DNA of 7,839 bases from Gammaproteobacteria bacterium (GTDB taxonomy: Bacteria > Pseudomonadota > Gammaproteobacteria > UBA11654): contig JABHDX010000070.1 of the NCBI GenBank assembly GCA_018672815.1, positions 1-7,839 of the forward strand. The letters are read 5' to 3'. The translations under genes were made by a program, and so were the position numbers. A model generated the notes under the pieces. It searched no databases and was not told the origin of the DNA. It worked only from the letters and a program-made list of their open reading frames with translations. Positions 209 to 7,839 of the stretch are shown piece by piece. Every line of letters starts with the position of its first letter. Position 1 is the stretch's first letter.

Positions 209-1492
209 CTATTGATCCATATTATTGATTAAAGCATCTCCAAATTCACTGCATTTTACTGGAGTGATATCATTCATTAATCGGGCAAAATCATATGTAA
301 CTACCTGATCTTGAATGGTTTGATCCATGGATGAGATGATCAAATCTGCTGCTTCTGTCCAATCAAGATAGCGTAGCATCATTTCACCAGATAGGATCAC
401 AGATCCAGGGTTAACTTTATCTAGGCCACTGTATTTTGGTGCTGTCCCATGAGTGGCTTCAAATACGGCATGCCCAGTTAGACTATTGATATTTCCACCT
501 GGCGCTATACCTATTCCGCCCACTTGTGCTGCTAGAGCATCAGATAGATAGTCTCCATTCAGATTCATTGTTGCTATTACATCAAATTCAGAAGGTCTAG
601 TTAATACTTGTTGTAATGTAATATCAGCAATTGCATCTTTGACAAGTATTGCTCCATTATCCATAGCATCCGTCTGTTCTTTGTTAGCTGCATCTTCTCC
701 ACTTTCAGCTTTAGTTCTTTCCCATTGATCCCAGGTATAGACATAATCTCCATACTCTTTTTCAGCCAATTCGTAGCCCCAGTTTCTGAAAGCACCCTCT
801 GTGAACTTCATAATATTGCCTTTATGAACAAAGGTGACACTTTTACGTTTATTTTTTATGGCAAAATCGAAAGCCGATCTTAATAATCTTTCCGTACCCT
901 CAATGGATATTGGTTTTATTCCGATGCCAGACGTCTCTGGAAATCTTATTTTAGAGTAATCTTCTGGAAAAGACTCTTTAAAGAAGTTAAGAAATTTTTT
1001 ATTAGACTCACTGCCTTGTTCAAATTCAATACCAGCATAGATATCTTCAGTATTCTCTCTGAATATAACCATATCAATTTGCTCAGGAGTTTTAACAGGA
1101 GAGGGAACACCTTTGAACCAGCGAACTGGTCTTTGACAAACATATAGATCAAGCAATTGTCTTAACGCTACGTTGAGTGATCTCATTCCACCACCAATTG
1201 GTGTGGTAAGAGGGCCTTTGATTGAAACTAGGTATTTCTTGCAGTCTTCTATCGTTTCATCTGGAAGCCAGTTGTTAAATTTATCAAAAGCTTTCTGACC
1301 AGCATAGACTTCAAGCCAATGAATCTTTCTTTCTCCATTATAAGCTTTTTCAACTGCGGCATCTAAGACTCTAACGGCTGATTTCCATATATCTGGACCT
1401 ATACCATCTCCTTCTATAAATGGGATTATTGGATCGTTTGGAACTGTTAATTTTCCATCTATTAGCTCAATCTTTGATCCTTGTTGTGACAT
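209..1492 (-). CDS. icd: Isocitrate dehydrogenase (NADP+), TCA cycle
   Basis: Cytosolic homodimeric enzyme that oxidatively decarboxylates isocitrate to 2-oxoglutarate, making NADPH. At 427 residues it is close to the E. coli enzyme (416). The isocitrate-binding segment [12 protein letters not shown] (96-107) contains Ser105, the counterpart of E. coli Ser113, which AceK phosphorylates; Asn107, Arg111, Arg121 and Arg145 follow in their usual places. Tyr152 and Lys224 match the catalytic Tyr and Lys. Asp290, Asp314 and Asp318 match the metal-binding aspartates. The cofactor loop HGTAPKYSG (348-356) plus Tyr400 and Arg404 in VTYDFARL match the NADP-specificity residues (E. coli Tyr391, Arg395), so NADP rather than NAD use is expected. 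The start is supported by AGGGG 6 nt upstream. The gene has its own probable promoter in the 94-nt gap behind the hydrolase gene. No aceK or glyoxylate-shunt gene lies in the window, so phosphorylation control remains unproven here. Confidence 0.97.
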
Positions 1493-1586: not shown

Positions 1587-2390
1587 TTAATGTTGACGCA
1601 AGAAATCAAACAAGATTTTACAAAAAGCAATTTTTTGCTCCTTACCTGCAACCACGTGTGCTACATCCTCCATAGTCACACCAATCGCATTGGGAATACC
1701 TTCTTCTATTGGAATTGTTGTTCTTGGACCTGTAACCATATCTTTAGCTGCATGTATAATAAGACAAGGAGCTTTGATTTCAGAAAGCTGTTGTCGAACA
1801 TCATGATTTAAGCAGGCTTCAACGAGTCTTTCATGGGTCACTAGATTTCCATTTAACTCTTTCCAACCAGCATTCTCTCCCAATAATTTACCTCTGTTCT
1901 CATTGTAATACTCAGGCAGAAAAGAATAAATACTAACGAACTCTTGAAAAGTTAGGAAACCAGAATCTCTATGAACATCCCTGAAGAGTTTTAACTGATT
2001 ATAAAGATAGGTGTCACAAAAAACCCAAGCACCCATATTTACCATACTTCTTACTAAATTATTTCTTTGAATAGCAACTTCTTGAGCCACACAACAACCC
2101 ATCCCAACCAATCCTATCATGTGTACATTCTTCCATTGCAAATGATCCAAAAGACCAATCAAATCATTAGCATGCATTTTCATTGAAGGAGTGACATTTA
2201 AATCATCCGAGGAATCCCCTATACCACGATAATCAAAAACCAATACTTGATATTCATCTGTTAATCCTCTGGCTAATAATTTTTCATTACCATGTGCAAA
2301 CGTACCCCAACCACCCATGCAGACAACAGGTTCACCCTCACCATGAATTTCATAATACATTTCGTGATTATTAATTTCGATTGTAGGCAT
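1587..2390 (-). CDS. Alpha/beta-hydrolase-fold protein lacking the usual nucleophilic serine
   Basis: A 267-residue cytosolic protein (no signal peptide or membrane segment) with the layout of the single-domain alpha/beta hydrolases: an N-terminal beta strand pair (YYEIHGEGEP), an oxyanion-loop region MGGWGT (25-30), the strand and turn VFDYRGIGDS (51-60), a helical cap around 120-190, and a C-terminal segment with a likely acidic residue Asp217 (HAAKDMVTG) and His245 (EDVAHVVAG). The nucleophile elbow, normally G-x-S-x-G, reads GLVGMGCCVAQE (93-104). Aligned through AQEVA, Gly96 stands where Ser belongs; two cysteines, 99 and 100, lie nearby. It is therefore either a non-hydrolytic member, an enzyme with displaced chemistry such as a Cys nucleophile, or a lyase-like or binding protein. 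The substrate is unknown. The start is supported by GGGAG about 7 nt upstream. It is transcribed away from the RCCR-like gene across a 125-nt shared region and lies upstream of icd. Confidence 0.8.
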   Translation of the reverse strand: MPTIEINNHEMYYEIHGEGEPVVCMGGWGTFAHGNEKLLARGLTDEYQVLVFDYRGIGDSSDDLNVTPSMKMHANDLIGLLDHLQWKNVHMIGLVGMGCCVAQEVAIQRNNLVRSMVNMGAWVFCDTYLYNQLKLFRDVHRDSGFLTFQEFVSIYSFLPEYYNENRGKLLGENAGWKELNGNLVTHERLVEACLNHDVRQQLSEIKAPCLIIHAAKDMVTGPRTTIPIEEGIPNAIGVTMEDVAHVVAGKEQKIAFCKILFDFLRQH

Positions 2391-2437: not shown

Positions 2438-2515
2438 TGCTAATCTACTAGATCTATATGTTTCTTGATGGAATACTGTAATTCTAATTTTTTATTTTTT
2501 AAAGGAATAAAGCCC

Positions 2516-3346
2516 ATGAGCGAAAGAAAAGAAACAAAAACTATAATGGAGTTTTTGGCTGAAAATCCAGATGTTGATGTCAATAATGCCTGGGAACGCT
2601 GTTGGGGTATTCAGACTGGTATTATAGATAGGATTAGACAGAGGTTTGAGGTCTCAAAGCATCCATCATGCAAGGGCAGGGAATACTTTACTTCTGAAGT
2701 GCATCCTGAAAATGGCCAACTAGAAGGCTCTTTTAATTCTTATACAGGAGAGAGTATGGACTGGTTAGTTCACTCTTGGCTTGGCAACAGAAAACGTAGT
2801 ATTTTGGATATCAATGCAACAGCATTCTTGGGACAAGAAACAAGAGTTCCCCATTTGACAGTTATTTTTGGAACAATACCTCGTCTTTATTTTTATGCTG
2901 AATATACACCGAGGATGGATTTAAGAATGAATCCAGATTATTTACACAAATATTATGAGCCAGTAAATAAAGATTTTCTTGAATTTAGAGATCATCCAAA
3001 CTGGACTAGATTTGTCAGTCATGGAACTTATCTTAGATCTCTTATGTCTCCTATTTGTATTAGTTCGCATGCAGAGTTAAATGACGAAAATATCGATTTT
3101 TGTGAAACTTACTTAAAAACCTTTATCGATCGATGGTTTGAATGGCTAGATAAAGCTGAAACTGTTCCAGAATCAGAGAGAGATGAACTTCAAACCTATG
3201 ATTTAAAGGTAAGAGAGTTGGGGTATAGGAATGACCCAATGAATATACTTCCAATTCAAATATTCGGTGCCGAAGAAGCCAATAGAATGCTGGAAATGAG
3301 AATAGGTGTCGATCAAATTAAAACTGTTTCTGGTCGTTGGAAATGA
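2516..3346 (+). CDS. Red chlorophyll catabolite reductase-like protein (linear-tetrapyrrole reductase family)
   Basis: A 276-residue soluble protein without signal peptide or membrane segment. It resembles RCCR, the plant enzyme that reduces red chlorophyll catabolite using ferredoxin and is related to ferredoxin-dependent bilin reductases. Seen here: MDWLVHSWLG (81-90) followed by a strand like the RCCR 'hydrophobic-x-SW' segment; PR-x-DL-x3-P-x-YL-x2-YYE (132-148); YLRSLMSP (172-179); and the C-terminal FG-x3-A-x-R-x-L (250-259). These come in the same order and spacing as I recall in plant RCCR. By the same recalled alignment, a glutamate considered important in Arabidopsis RCCR (Glu154) is hydrophobic here, so substrate or chemistry may differ. 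The start at 2516 is chosen because AAAGGA (2501-2506) lies 9 nt upstream; in-frame TTG 2465 and ATG 2468 lack such a site and would add an unrelated, hydrophobic N-terminus. First gene of an operon with a two-component system. The family call is fairly confident; the substrate is unknown. Confidence 0.75.
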   Translation: MSERKETKTIMEFLAENPDVDVNNAWERCWGIQTGIIDRIRQRFEVSKHPSCKGREYFTSEVHPENGQLEGSFNSYTGESMDWLVHSWLGNRKRSILDINATAFLGQETRVPHLTVIFGTIPRLYFYAEYTPRMDLRMNPDYLHKYYEPVNKDFLEFRDHPNWTRFVSHGTYLRSLMSPICISSHAELNDENIDFCETYLKTFIDRWFEWLDKAETVPESERDELQTYDLKVRELGYRNDPMNILPIQIFGAEEANRMLEMRIGVDQIKTVSGRWK

Positions 3347-3355
3347 TTAAAGTCG

Positions 3356-4039
3356 ATGTCTAGAGCACTTCTAATTGATGATGATGTTAAACTAGGAAGA
3401 CTCTTAAAGGATTTTTTGAAAAAGTCAGAGATACATTTGTTGCCCATTATCGATCCTACTCAATCTTTGTCATCCATAGATGAATACGAACCAGATATTA
3501 TAATTCTTGATGTTATGATGCCTCAATTGGATGGTTTTGAGGTGTGTAAAAGAATTAGAAAAAATCACTCAATACCAATCATTATGCTAAGTGCTAGAGG
3601 CCATGCTGAGGATAAAATTAAAGGCTTAGATTTGGGCGCTGATGATTATATTGCTAAACCATTTCAACCAAGAGAGCTTTTAGCAAGAATCAATAGTCTT
3701 TTACGAAGAGTTCCAGAGAAGAAAAAGATCACAATTAAAGGATCTTTTATAGTTGATACACTGCATCGAGAAATTAAAATGGAGGGAGATTTATTAAAGC
3801 TGACCAATAAGGAGTATGAATTACTTTCTTTTTTAGTTTTTAACCCTGGTGTTATCTTCTCCAGAGATGATCTTCTTAAACAAATTAAAGGTATTGAGGC
3901 CAAGCTGTTTTCAAGATCTATTGATATTTTGATTTCAAGGCTTAGAAATAAGGTAGAAAAAAATACCGATGACCCAGAATTTATTAAAACAATTTGGGGT
4001 AAAGGTTATACCTTTATCAATTTCGATAGGTCTGAATGA
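3356..4039 (+). CDS. OmpR/PhoB-family response regulator
   Basis: Cytoplasmic DNA-binding regulator of 227 residues, the normal family length. The receiver domain (3-115) has the acidic pocket Asp8-Asp10, phospho-acceptor Asp52 in IIILDVMMP, Ser79 in the conserved Ser/Thr position (IIMLSARG) and Lys101 in IAKPF. The C-terminal winged helix (about 125-222) shows the LTNKEYELLSFL start, recognition-helix segment RSIDILISRLRNKVE and the closing IKTIWGKGYTF wing. It is most like the CpxR/RstA group. It starts only 9 nt after the RCCR-like stop with no clear ribosome binding site, so translation is probably coupled to the upstream gene. Its stop overlaps the kinase start (ATGA), so the kinase is its partner. 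Likely targets include its own operon and perhaps the hydrolase promoter opposite, but no binding-site repeat is obvious. Confidence 0.95.
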   Translation: MSRALLIDDDVKLGRLLKDFLKKSEIHLLPIIDPTQSLSSIDEYEPDIIILDVMMPQLDGFEVCKRIRKNHSIPIIMLSARGHAEDKIKGLDLGADDYIAKPFQPRELLARINSLLRRVPEKKKITIKGSFIVDTLHREIKMEGDLLKLTNKEYELLSFLVFNPGVIFSRDDLLKQIKGIEAKLFSRSIDILISRLRNKVEKNTDDPEFIKTIWGKGYTFINFDRSE

Positions 4040-5394
4040 TGCATAAGTTTTTTCAATCATTAACAATTAAGTTAACTTCTATTTTCTTTATTACAGCTAT
4101 TGCTTATGTCTATCTTTTGACCATTGGAGTTCAGAGGCTTGTGTTTAATGATGAGGTACGAGAAACTCTTGGCTATTATCAGTCAGGTTATTTTGAATAC
4201 ATGTTGGAGGACTTAGGTTACCCACCTAGCTTAGTTAAAGCCAAGAAAATTGTAGAAGCGATGCCTTTAGACATGATGATTTATGATGATAATCCAGTAT
4301 GGTCTTCGTCAATAGATTTTCCAGATATTAAATCAATTGATTTTCAACTGAGTAACCTGAACCTTGCTAAGATTAAGGCGGATATAGAGGTAGGAAGAGA
4401 AGCCTCTATAGAGGGATTAGAGTTTTCTAGGTATAAGGGGAGAGTTTATACTAAAATTCCTTTTGATGAATTCACAATTATAATGGTTAACCCTAAATTC
4501 TCAGAACCTGTAGTATCAATCTATATTCTTGAGCTTGTCATTGCAATTACTCTCATTATTCTTTTGGTTTGTTTTGTAAGCGTTTCTAAAATCTTCAAGC
4601 CAATACAAATTATTCAGGATGGTACTAATCGTATTGGTAGTGGAGAACTTAATCATAGAATTGAAGTTAAACAGAAAGATGATTTGGGGAGGCTTGCAAA
4701 ACAGATCAATTTGTTAGCAGATAATATAGAAGAAATGCTTCATGCAAAGCAAATGCTTAATCTTGGTGTCAGCCATGAATTAAGATCTCCACTGACAAGA
4801 GCAAGGCTTCAAGTTGAAATGATAGAAGATGACATTAATAAGGAAGATCTTTTAGCTGAAATTACTGCCATGGAAACAATAATTTCAAATTTATTGGATA
4901 GCGAGGCTATCAATTATGGTCATAAGAAACTAAATTTGGAGACTTTCAGCTTAAAGAGAAGTCTAGAAAAGGTGATTGAGAATTCAGCGTTTCTTAAAGT
5001 GAAAAAAGTAAGTGTTAATATGGATACTGACGATGTAAGTCTTGGAGCTGATCAAGTTTTAATCGAAGTAGTATTAAAGAATATTTTAGAGAATGCTGCT
5101 AGATTCTCACCAGAAGAAAATTCAACCATTGAAGTTAAAATAGAGCATCATAATGATGAATTTATTAATATCTCCATTAGAGATTTTGGTCCTGGTTTCC
5201 TAGAAGAAGATATTGAAAAAGTTACAGAACCTTTTTATAGAACTAGTAAATCAAGAAGTAGAGAAAGTGGAGGCTTTGGTTTGGGCCTCTATTTATGCAA
5301 GCAAATCGTACTTGCACACCAAGGTTTATTATCCATCAGTAATCATGAGGAAAAAGGGGCAGTTATCTTTATTCAGATACCAATGGAACAATAA
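4036..5394 (+). CDS. Membrane sensor histidine kinase, partner of the upstream regulator
   Basis: Inner-membrane kinase of 452 residues. Order: TM1 about 12-32; periplasmic sensor domain about 33-160 (small, no recognisable PAS or CACHE motif by eye); TM2 about 161-182; HAMP linker about 183-235 (containing DDLGRLAKQIN); dimerisation and phosphotransfer helix with His247 in LGVSHELRSPLTRAR; and an HATPase domain with N-box NILENAARFSP (Asn353), G1 DFGPGF (383-388), F-box EPFYR (398-402) and G2 GGFGLGL (412-418). All motifs needed for kinase activity are present. HELRSPLTR is typical of the CpxA/RstB type. The ATG at 4036 overlaps the regulator stop (ATGA); a second ATG at 4039 is equally possible and changes one residue. 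The signal sensed cannot be read from the sequence; a periplasmic sensor points to an envelope or external cue rather than cytoplasmic bilin. Confidence 0.95.
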   Translation: MMHKFFQSLTIKLTSIFFITAIAYVYLLTIGVQRLVFNDEVRETLGYYQSGYFEYMLEDLGYPPSLVKAKKIVEAMPLDMMIYDDNPVWSSSIDFPDIKSIDFQLSNLNLAKIKADIEVGREASIEGLEFSRYKGRVYTKIPFDEFTIIMVNPKFSEPVVSIYILELVIAITLIILLVCFVSVSKIFKPIQIIQDGTNRIGSGELNHRIEVKQKDDLGRLAKQINLLADNIEEMLHAKQMLNLGVSHELRSPLTRARLQVEMIEDDINKEDLLAEITAMETIISNLLDSEAINYGHKKLNLETFSLKRSLEKVIENSAFLKVKKVSVNMDTDDVSLGADQVLIEVVLKNILENAARFSPEENSTIEVKIEHHNDEFINISIRDFGPGFLEEDIEKVTEPFYRTSKSRSRESGGFGLGLYLCKQIVLAHQGLLSISNHEEKGAVIFIQIPMEQ

Positions 5395-5482: not shown

Positions 5483-5800
5483 ATGGCATTAATACATGTA
5501 ATAGACAGTGAGGGCGAAGAGCATGAAGTGGAAGGGCAAGTCGGCCTTTCACTAATGGAAAGTTTGCGAGACTTAGATAATGGAACGTTAGCATTATGTG
5601 GAGGCATGTGTTCATGTGCTACTTGTCATTGTTTTATTGAAGAACCATGGGCCTCATCATTATCAGAAAGACAAGATGATGAACACGAATTACTTGAAGA
5701 TTTAGATTCTTTTAGAGAAAACCAGTCTCGTTTGTCTTGTCAGATTGAGTTGACAGAAGAAATGGATGGCATGAGAGTCGAAGTCGCACCTGATGAATAA
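5483..5800 (+). CDS. [2Fe-2S] ferredoxin, adrenodoxin/putidaredoxin type
   Basis: A small acidic electron carrier (105 residues; putidaredoxin has 106). The cluster ligands are Cys39, Cys45, Cys48 (C-x5-C-x2-C in LCGGMCSCATCHC) and Cys86 in LSCQI, the same numbering as putidaredoxin. Such ferredoxins take electrons from a flavoprotein reductase and pass them to cytochromes P450, Rieske oxygenases or Fe-S assembly; no reductase or P450 is in this window. Two further cysteines, 43 and 50, flank the ligands. The C-terminal half is rich in Asp and Glu, as expected for docking to a basic partner. The start at 5483 has AGGTAA about 5 nt upstream. An 88-nt gap separates it from the kinase gene, so it may be read through from that operon or have its own promoter. 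It lies 12 nt before the GST gene. It could supply electrons to the RCCR-like enzyme, although plant RCCR uses plant-type ferredoxin. Confidence 0.93.
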   Translation: MALIHVIDSEGEEHEVEGQVGLSLMESLRDLDNGTLALCGGMCSCATCHCFIEEPWASSLSERQDDEHELLEDLDSFRENQSRLSCQIELTEEMDGMRVEVAPDE

Positions 5801-5812
5801 AAAAGGCTAATA

Positions 5813-6421
5813 ATGATAAAACTATTTCATGCTAAAGGCAGTCGATCTGCAAGAATTATATGGCTATTTGAAGAACTAGGTATGGATTATCAATTAGATA
5901 TTCTAGAACGAGGAAAACCAAATCTAGCTTTTAATTCAGCAAGTCCATTTGCAAAAATACCTGCTATCCAAGATGGTGATCTAACCCTTACAGAGTCCGT
6001 TGCAATTATTCAATACATTCTCAATAAGTATGGTAATGGCCAACTTCAGCCAGCAATCGATAGTGTTGAATATCCAGTTTTTTTACAGTGGCTCATGTTT
6101 GGAGAATCAACAATGATTCTTCCAGTTGTTGAGATTTTAGTTAACACAATGTTTAGATCTGAAGAAAATAGGCATCAATATTCGATAGACTCTGCAACGA
6201 AGCAGTTTAAAAAAATAGCTCAATCTTTGGATCCTATACTCAGTAAACAAGATTATCTTATGGGGAATCGCTTTACAGCTGTGGATATAGTTAATGGTTA
6301 TACCTTGAGACTTGCTAGCAGGCAGCAATTACTTGATCATTCTGAGGGTATTGAAAATGTATGTGATTATTTTAGAAGACTTGAAGCTCGTGAGGCTTAT
6401 CAGAAAGCTATCTCTATATAG
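5813..6421 (+). CDS. Glutathione S-transferase family protein
   Basis: A 202-residue cytosolic protein, the usual size. The N-terminal thioredoxin-like domain (1-75) begins with a beta strand and GSRSARIIWLFEELG (9-23), where Ser10 or Ser12 is in the position of the catalytic residue. It has the cis-proline Pro50 in AKIPAI and the Glu61-Ser62 pair (TESVAI) that holds the gamma-glutamyl group of glutathione. The all-helical C-terminal domain (about 85-202) contains the N-capping box Thr155-x-x-Asp158 in FTAVDIVNGY. It should bind glutathione and conjugate or bind a hydrophobic ligand; the substrate is unknown. Some GSTs bind porphyrins and other tetrapyrroles, which would suit this locus, but nothing in the sequence shows it. 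AAGG lies 6 nt before the start, and the gene begins 12 nt after the ferredoxin stop, so the two form an operon. Its last 8 bases overlap the amidase gene on the other strand. Confidence 0.93.
   Translation: MIKLFHAKGSRSARIIWLFEELGMDYQLDILERGKPNLAFNSASPFAKIPAIQDGDLTLTESVAIIQYILNKYGNGQLQPAIDSVEYPVFLQWLMFGESTMILPVVEILVNTMFRSEENRHQYSIDSATKQFKKIAQSLDPILSKQDYLMGNRFTAVDIVNGYTLRLASRQQLLDHSEGIENVCDYFRRLEAREAYQKAISI
6414..6421. other. Overlapping convergent gene ends inside an 8-bp palindrome
   Basis: CTATATAG is its own reverse complement and holds both stop codons: TAG of the GST gene on the plus strand (6419-6421) and TAG of the amidase gene on the minus strand (6416-6414). Both proteins end in isoleucine encoded by ATA just before the stop. 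There is no space and no GC-rich hairpin with a T-run for an intrinsic terminator, so transcripts from each side probably run into the antisense of the other gene. Confidence 0.9.
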
Positions 6422-7839
6422 GTCGTCTATTTTTCCAAGGCTTAGCTTCTTCTAGGTCTAAAGCGAGTTGTAATAGTTCTTTTTCTTTTCCTATGCCTGC
6501 CTGAAAATGTGACCCAATTGGTAATCCTATTGAAGACCAATGCAACGGCAAGGATATAGCTGGTTCACCTGTCACATTTGCTAGGGGAGTAATACTGATA
6601 ATATCAATGCATCTTTGTAATAAATCATCATAAGCTACACTGGGAGCAAGAAATCCTAATTTCGGCACTGTTGTTTGCATTACAGGCGTTAGAAGCATGT
6701 CATATTCTTCAAAAAAACCTTTCGTTTTTATCGTATCGTTTTTTAGAAGATTAACGGCTTTCTTTACTTGATTTTCGGGTCTGGAATCAAACCATTTCCC
6801 AAGTCCTAGTGTCCATGGCTCTAGTAATTTTTCATTAATAATTTTTTCCATTCCATATGTTTGCTCTGCGAAAGTAATAATTTCTTTAGCGCCATAAGCC
6901 CACATAGTAAGAAAAGAATCTATAAAATTAATACCATTAATAAACGGCTTAACTATTTCTATATTATGTCCTAGGTTTTCGCATAACTTAGCAGTATCTT
7001 CGGTTGCATTTTTAACTTCAGGATCCGATTCTATTCCAAGCATACTTTGTGTCATCATTGCTATTTTAAGTACTTTTTTTGATCGAGTTAAGCTTGTTGG
7101 AAATATGGGTAAATGTTTGGGTAATTTTTTTCTTTGCATAGCATGTAGAGCAGTAATGGAATCTCTAATAGTTTTTGTATGAACAAATCGAACGCTCAAA
7201 TCAATAGGTCTATTCGGTTGTGACGAATCAATTGTCCTATAGAGGCTTGGCTTTAATCCGACCAGACCACAGCAAGAAGCAGGTATTCTTATAGATCCAC
7301 CACCATCACTGGCAGAAGCAATAGCTGTCATCCCAGAAGCAACAGCTGCTGCTGATCCACCACTGGAGCCACCTGTTGAATAATCTTGGTTCCATGGATT
7401 TTTAGCTATACCTAAATGAAATGACTCTGTGCTTGGTAGCAGACCAAATTCAGGTGTATTTGTTTTTCCCAAAGAAATTAAACCTGCATCTAAAGCAGCT
7501 TGTACATTGGAAGAATTATTTTGAGCTACTCTTTTAGCAAATAATTTTGAACCAGAAGAAGTTATTAATCCCTGTTGGTTTAGTAAATCTTTGATTAAAT
7601 AGGGCACACCAGCGAAGGGGCCTTTCGAATTTTGATTTTTAGCTATTAACCTTGCTTGCTCAAATGAGGTTTCAACTACAGCATTTAATGATGGGTTTAG
7701 TCTTAAAATTCGATCAATAGATGCGTCGACCAACTCTAATGCCGTTATTTCTTTTTTCTTGATTAATGCAGCCTGTGCAGTGGCATCTATATTATTGAAT
7801 GGATCGATATCACTAAATGCTTTTTTGATTGGAAAGGAA
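6414..7839 (-). CDS. Amidase-signature family hydrolase, 5' end beyond the right edge
   Basis: A Ser-cisSer-Lys amidohydrolase; 474 residues are visible and the frame stays open to the window edge. Numbering from the first visible codon: Lys83 in [10 protein letters not shown], cis-Ser158 in the Gly/Ser-rich [14 protein letters not shown], and nucleophile Ser182 in [13 protein letters not shown], with the expected 24-residue spacing between the two serines. The upstream part [20 protein letters not shown] (12-31) is the normal amidase N-terminal helix, so the TTG at 7733, a formal start in this frame, is internal; no in-frame ATG lies between it and the edge. The family cleaves amide bonds in many small molecules; [16 protein letters not shown] and the overall layout resemble the aryl-amidase / 6-aminohexanoate-cyclic-dimer-hydrolase branch rather than GatA, and no other gat gene is near. 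The substrate is unknown. It converges on the GST gene and is not part of that operon. Confidence 0.92.

Follow-up and report, generated by a model that had tools for sequence, protein, structure and literature searches.

Plant red chlorophyll catabolite reductase (RCCR), represented by the Arabidopsis enzyme (PDB 2zxk/3aga), and the ferredoxin-dependent bilin reductases (FDBRs) HY2, PebB, PebA and PcyA are among the closest known relatives of the gene considered here. RCCR homologues of cyanobacteria (Nostoc and Anabaena) were reported in 2009 (PMC2716323, in the portion of its text that is available). In the accessible parts of PMC10151467, bilin reductases are set against an outgroup of RCCRs 'and related sequences', among which sequences from Schekmanbacteria fall, and an available excerpt of PMC13193486 (2026) also mentions RCCR as an outgroup. 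Here we analyze an RCCR-like gene in a 7,839-nucleotide stretch of gammaproteobacterial DNA (contig JABHDX010000070.1 of assembly GCA_018672815.1, in its whole length denoted the window), together with the loci of its relatives and a putative catabolic gene island in some of their genomes.

The window protein has in common with Arabidopsis RCCR the Pfam family, the fold, the order of motifs and Asp291 (Arabidopsis numbering). It differs from the plant enzyme in sequence (roughly 21% identity when the structures are aligned; Ile117 instead of Glu154), in length (276 residues, compared with 319 in an Arabidopsis RCCR, P0121), in its placement in a clade apart from plants, and in the setting of its gene, a bacterial unit with a two-component system and a ferredoxin. 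Unlike the FDBRs, it gives no match to the bilin reductase family PF05996 at E <= 1, and haem oxygenase was found in none of the 30 non-actinobacterial carriers searched. The cyanobacterial proteins are likewise bacterial members of the RCCR family, but come from phototrophs according to the available description. The pre-PcyA clusters, as far as the accessible text of PMC10151467 describes them, also come from non-phototrophs and encode an enzyme of FDBR fold close to an Fe-S protein, but are associated with bilin-binding globins and V4R proteins, neither of which was found among the scanned window and island genes.

Family, fold and active site of the RCCR-like protein

In Pfam, the window protein scored 56.6 bits with RCC_reductase (PF06405), for which the cut-off is 24.9 (E 3e-15, residues 65-260), and matched no other family at E <= 1. 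A phmmer search of PDB sequences returned Arabidopsis RCCR as the sole match at E <= 10 (E 5.6e-10, residues 65-259). The sequence-only reading of this DNA had proposed a homologue of plant RCCR with four motifs in the plant order; the profile score above the curated cut-off and the phmmer match bear out the homology, and the order is confirmed in the phmmer alignment (MDWLVHSWLG at 81-90, PRMDLRMNPDYLHKYYE at 132-148, YLRSLMSP at 172-179 and FGAEEANRML at 250-259). A clearly better match to an unrelated family turned up neither in Pfam nor in NCBIfam, where the scan yielded only a sub-threshold match to phycoerythrobilin:ferredoxin oxidoreductase (PebB; E 0.087). Of the two profile families named in that reading, RCC_reductase was thus recovered and the bilin reductase family was not. 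A bacterial copy is less exceptional than that reading implied, given the cyanobacterial members and several heterotroph proteins whose database entries are already titled 'red chlorophyll catabolite reductase'. Altogether, 266 of 462 candidate database proteins matched at E <= 1e-3. These data support the window gene as a bacterial member of the RCCR/FDBR superfamily.

The gene is taken to extend from the ATG at 2516 to a stop codon ending at 3346. A mechanically called open reading frame (ORF) is longer at the 5' side, beginning with a TTG at 2465; the majority of homologues in alignment A1 open at or close to the Met encoded at 2516. The ratio of nonsynonymous to synonymous substitution rates (dN/dS) is 0.045 and 0.044 in comparison with the closest loci, L001 and L002 (protein identities of 94% and 93%), which indicates strong purifying selection on the gene.

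The predicted structure adopts the alpha/beta/alpha fold of RCCR and equally that of the FDBRs HY2, PebB and PcyA, so that the structural comparison proposed by the sequence-only reading gave a match to both. Glu154 and Asp291 of the plant enzyme are said by Sugishima and colleagues (2010) to flank the C20/C1 bond of red chlorophyll catabolite (RCC) that is reduced. In an alignment of 30 proteins, Asp291 is conserved in all 30, and Glu154 aligns with Ile117 of the window protein, as expected from the earlier suggestion that a hydrophobic residue replaces the glutamate. The residue at this position depends on the subfamily, being Ile or Val in A, to which the window protein belongs, Ala in B and Asp in C. 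Because Glu154 is absent, we class the protein as a family member and not as an RCC reductase; with Ile117 in place of the second acid, the reaction should depart from plant RCC reduction in the bond that is reduced, in its stereochemistry or in the substrate.

Gene neighborhood and distribution

We compared 81 loci, the window and the best 80 of 169 relatives, and searched 36 genomes (G001-G036) taken from 36 of these 80 loci. Genes were called by a heuristic choice of ORFs (length and amino-acid make-up) and not by a trained gene finder; the anchor gene was found in 81/81 loci. Neighbor families were linked by BLAST and took their names from the Pfam matches of a single member or a few, and because the loci are unequal in length the following counts are lower bounds. 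A regulator of the family found in the window lies on the same strand, 1 to 3 ORFs downstream of the RCCR-like gene, in 34 loci, and the histidine kinase family follows downstream in 32. The ferredoxin family occurs in 28 loci, with the motif C-x5-C-x2-C-n-C in 28/28, the glutathione S-transferase family in 13, and the alpha/beta hydrolase as an opposite-strand neighbor in 18. The order RCCR, regulator, kinase, ferredoxin is kept in 27/81 loci, down to 63% protein identity. A ferredoxin in this unit fits the need of an RCCR/FDBR-type reductase, yet it could serve other enzymes. In six loci (L021, L024, L025, L030, L032, L034) a ferrochelatase-family gene directly follows RCCR-A instead. Two loci (L048 and L029) come from metagenome bins whose assigned names, Klebsiella pneumoniae and Rheinheimera tuosuensis, may be wrong.

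In a tree of 60 proteins, subfamily A, the plant proteins and C each form one group (100/100 apiece); B is not cleanly a single group. The window protein falls, with that of L001 and other relatives, into a part of A that has 14 rows and otherwise consists of genes from G001-G018 only (the genomes of the window and of L001 were outside the search). The A genes of Halieaceae/Microbulbifer and of Nocardioidaceae branch outside this part. Since the tree is rooted at its midpoint and has long branches leading to the plant proteins, to C and to one B row, it is read here without bearing on the origin of plant RCCR.

At least two PF06405 matches were found in 17/18 of the genomes G019-G036 (Halieaceae, Spongiibacteraceae, Microbulbifer, Aestuariicella, Nocardioidaceae and similar) and in 4/18 of G001-G018 (G005, G008, G012 and G014), where the second copies are of type A. 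These second copies (L105, L106, L107 and L108) constitute a clade of their own within A (100/100). In wider samples the family is rare, with PF06405 in 2/274 genomes of the class, one of them the centre genome of the sample, and in 7/194 genomes of one order, the centre genome included. A phage or plasmid origin was considered and rejected, there being no protein match in 50,697 phage and 72,556 plasmid records; nine pattern matches in viral contigs included no relative.

A gene island in related genomes

The surroundings of the PF06405 copies, fetched over 20-60 kb, contain a gene set that is common to Actinomycetota and Gammaproteobacteria, although individual genomes may miss parts (Table 1; families named from one or a few members). 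Subfamily A of Halieaceae, Microbulbifer, Nocardioidaceae and their kin usually adjoins this island: in 14/18 island genomes RCCR-A lies at most 40 kb from C or from the lipocalin-like protein. Carriers include the named isolates Parahaliea maris, Litorivivens lipolytica, Microbulbifer and Nocardioides. The island is likewise seen across L085-L104 and L115-L124, and a compact version of about 30 kb is present in G411 (G411:C16:460000-499999, L135-L136).

Table 1. Features of the window and of the island in related genomes
Feature	Position	Strand	Basis or remark
RCCR-like protein, subfamily A, 276 aa	2516..3346	+	PF06405, phmmer to Arabidopsis RCCR, fold, tree
Shine-Dalgarno-like AAGGA	2502..2506	+	read from sequence; ATG 2516 starts 9 bases after
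Ile117 codon, position of plant Glu154	2864..2866	+	MAFFT alignment, 30 proteins
Asp240 codon, position of plant Asp291	3233..3235	+	MAFFT alignment; invariant in alignments A1 and A2
OmpR-type response regulator	3356..4039	+	Response_reg and Trans_reg_C; 9 bases after RCCR-like stop
Histidine kinase	4036..5394	+	HAMP, HisKA, HATPase; 4-base overlap with regulator
[2Fe-2S] ferredoxin, candidate electron donor	5483..5800	+	Fer2 E 6.4e-8
Glutathione S-transferase family protein	5813..6421	+	Pfam; 12 bases after ferredoxin
Alpha/beta hydrolase, divergent neighbor	1587..2390	-	Pfam; no specific function from NCBIfam
Isocitrate/isopropylmalate dehydrogenase-family protein	209..1492	-	Pfam; flank, outside proposed unit
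Amidase	6414..7838	-	Pfam; flank, truncated by window edge
Island: RCCR-A			same subfamily as window gene
Island: RCCR-B, 270 aa			PF06405, 70.8 bits in Parahaliea
Island: C, 250 residues			no Pfam match; distant relative of A
Island: putative tandem lipocalin-like protein, 320 residues, and homologues	L097:16872-17876	+	no Pfam match; alignment A3
Island: Rieske oxygenase			VanA_C domain
Island: CN_hydrolase; isochorismatase-type amidase			
Island: acyl-CoA-dehydrogenase-like flavoprotein			flavin reductase too in two actinobacterial members
Island: FAD_binding_3 oxygenase; aldehyde dehydrogenase			
Island: maleate-isomerase/arylmalonate-decarboxylase relative; CoA-transferase III; HMG-CoA-lyase-like protein			
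Island: MFS (major facilitator superfamily) and TonB transport proteins			
Island: LeuC/LeuD-like proteins (hydratase)			
Island: PrpB-type lyase			under NCBIfam cut-off for methylisocitrate lyase

The 320-residue protein was modelled from six sequences (pLDDT 82.7). The model resembles DUF3598 (2o62) and BFA1 with TM scores of 0.49-0.66 and rmsd values of 7-11, and single barrels match the bilin lyase CpeS and Rv2717c at E about 0.02; the protein is accordingly modelled as a tandem lipocalin-like barrel. It occurs in 17/18 of G019-G036 and in 0/18 of G001-G018. In the order mentioned above, it coincides with PF06405 in the same 7 of 194 genomes (three already known through their RCCR loci and four new, G374, G411, G462 and G478) and the other 187 have neither, a count that takes no account of shared descent. 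The kinship of C to A follows from BLAST of the window protein against two C proteins (E 5.6e-7 and 4.4e-6) and from a C profile that reaches A genes (E 3.4e-9 in G001). Searched against the PDB, the C profile found no bilin reductase, its best match being an unrelated protein name at E 0.025. In L109 and L111 a diverged C-type protein stands beside an epimerase-like NAD(P)-binding protein, a partner that also adjoins RCCR-A in several island genomes.

The island Rieske oxygenase has SxtDIOX and NdmA as its closest PDB relatives. No PaO-type Rieske protein, as in plant-type chlorophyll breakdown, was found beside RCCR: PaO (PF08417) matched in 4/36 genomes, two of them over the cut-off, and always outside the island. 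The Mg-dechelatase Staygreen (PF12638) matched in 0/36 genomes, and the control genomes were likewise without a match. Relatives of the island Rieske protein at E <= 1e-40 are present in 17/18 of G001-G018 (up to 16 each; none in G016), with 4, 3 and 2 in G001-G003, whose genomes measure 1.1-1.4 Mb; island genomes have one each, except for two in G022 and none in G021. In L125 a FAD_binding_3 protein adjoins VanA_C-type Rieske relatives, with similar neighbors in L127 and L131. The PrpB-type lyase matched best in the PDB to petal death protein (E 3.6e-55) and also to 2,3-dimethylmalate lyase (1.4e-45). The riboflavin/lumichrome island of Nocardioides was rejected as an identity for the set: its P450, xanthine oxidase and catechol dioxygenase genes, as given in the available text of PMC12746152, were not seen among the scanned island genes.

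Function of the protein and of the island

From homology, predicted fold, residue changes, gene order, linkage and co-occurrence we infer ferredoxin use, reductase activity, the kind of substrate, its uptake and the role of the island. We judge it somewhat probable that the window protein reduces an open-chain tetrapyrrole with electrons from ferredoxin, Asp240 acting as the acid, and that pigment debris is the source of the substrate. The tetrapyrrole would be held in a pocket between the central sheet and the C-terminal helices, and one of its double bonds would be reduced with electrons delivered singly by a small [2Fe-2S] ferredoxin, for which the protein encoded three genes downstream is the candidate. 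It would probably be imported as chlorophyll or other pigment debris and not derive from the cell's own haem. The sequence-only reading had likewise suggested an open-chain tetrapyrrole, from either chlorophyll or haem; the general suggestion is supported, and its haem-derived option is weakened, because haem oxygenase (PF01126) matched in 0/30 non-actinobacterial genomes with an RCCR-like gene (3/14 control genomes matched). Biliverdin supplied by this family is thus unlikely in the window's relatives.

The same observation bears on a bilin synthase that would convert biliverdin from haem oxygenase into the chromophore of a photoreceptor or bilin-binding globin. The predicted fold is equal to that of HY2, PebB and PcyA and the unit also encodes a histidine kinase, but besides the missing haem oxygenase the models recognised in the kinase are HAMP, HisKA and ATPase, with no GAF or PHY match (no genome-wide phytochrome search was made), and we regard this role as highly improbable. 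A very unlikely role, for which the gene content leaves some room, is that of a haem-biosynthesis enzyme such as an unrecognised coproporphyrinogen oxidase, which has the same fold as the RCCR-like protein and would suit the ferrochelatase genes that directly follow A in some genomes. No coproporphyrinogen oxidase could be assigned in G001-G003 or, among the genomes with a ferrochelatase gene after A, in the three that were searched (G009, G010 and G013), the latter giving neither a HemN_C match nor a HemF match over the cut-off, although the HemN_C model of 67 residues may miss divergent HemN and several genomes are possibly incomplete. Against this, the window protein does not match the oxygen-dependent HemF family (PF01218) at E <= 1, A is found alongside strong HemF in 11/36 genomes and alongside HemN_C in 26/36, and such an activity would leave the linkage of A to RCCR-B and C unexplained. 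Weak coproporphyrinogen-oxidase matches (E 3e-6 to 1.5e-9) were also noted for proteins of about 300-320 aa with N-termini that appear hydrophobic or signal-like by eye (L128:3695-4600 and L129:12636-13589 on the plus strand, L134:7815-8762 on the minus strand), the L129 copy lying beside a Rieske-like gene.

The conserved linkage to regulator and kinase and the loss of one of the two acid residues would also suit a non-catalytic tetrapyrrole binder that senses or protects in partnership with the adjacent two-component system; the retention of Asp291 in 30/30 proteins, the strong purifying selection and the ferredoxin that follows the kinase in 27/81 loci make this quite unlikely. Finally, the fold may have been recruited for an unrelated substrate (another heterocycle or a lipid-like compound) on which both island and RCCR-like proteins act. 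We hold this to be unlikely, even though the island contains such generic catabolic families as short-chain dehydrogenase/reductase, aldehyde dehydrogenase, CoA-transferase, HMG-CoA lyase-like and MFS proteins, and its Rieske protein has the PDB neighbors named above.

Linear tetrapyrroles are broken down oxidatively to alkylmaleimides. Petal death protein acts on 2-ethyl-3-methylmalate, for which our literature search gave no useful support; this compound would match the ring of chlorophyll a that carries a methyl and an ethyl group. As a tentative extension of tetrapyrrole reduction by the window protein, the island could be an undescribed system with which heterotrophs of two phyla fully degrade open-chain tetrapyrroles, from chlorophyll or other sources, under aerobic conditions, and the window gene its reductase A kept without the island. 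The tandem lipocalin would bind the pigment, from which the Rieske and flavin oxygenases and as many as three reductases of RCCR/FDBR type (A, B and C) would produce alkylmaleimides; the amidases would open these to alkylmaleamates and alkylmaleates; and the LeuCD-like hydratase would turn the alkylmaleates into dialkylmalates, to be split by the PrpB/petal-death-like lyase into central metabolites. The window lineage, small-genomed and probably marine gammaproteobacteria, would instead hold A in the ferredoxin/two-component unit.

Several observations weigh against tetrapyrrole reduction by the window protein or against the island scheme. Glu154 of plant RCCR is not retained, and a PDB search with a profile built on subfamily A alone gave no hit to a bilin reductase at E <= 1. 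All Nocardioidaceae searched (6/6) do have haem oxygenase, the six genomes without an assigned coproporphyrinogen oxidase leave room for a role in haem synthesis, and the ferredoxin may instead serve the Rieske oxygenases of these genomes. As for the island, its Rieske protein is of the VanA_C and not of the PaO type, and the LeuC/LeuD-like proteins exceed the NCBIfam cut-offs for 3-isopropylmalate dehydratase, as the HMG-CoA-lyase-like protein exceeds its own, so that these proteins may do ordinary metabolism. A is 140 kb distant in G022 and on a separate contig in three island genomes, G021 has one PF06405 copy and no lipocalin, and G411 has the island but a single PF06405 match, of type B, from which it follows that A is not required for the island. 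In G001-G018, C has weak or diverged matches or none, its profile recovering only A itself in G001 and G002 and nothing in G003. With the lipocalin also absent from these genomes, the island is not directly transferable to the window; it is a lead from cousins and not a description of the window.

The literature searched, which covered few subscription papers, contains no description of a bacterial RCCR island, of an RCCR-regulator-kinase-ferredoxin unit or of a bacterial pathway mineralising the tetrapyrrole of chlorophyll, a pigment whose turnover is put at one billion tons yearly in the available text of PMC12930011. We consider the island of the cousins a more interesting find than the window gene alone. 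Its presence in named isolates makes bacterial breakdown of the chlorophyll tetrapyrrole directly testable, and the window shows that other bacteria keep one such reductase in a separate ferredoxin/two-component unit. Taken together, the island provides a testable lead on how bacteria may break down chlorophyll or similar molecules.
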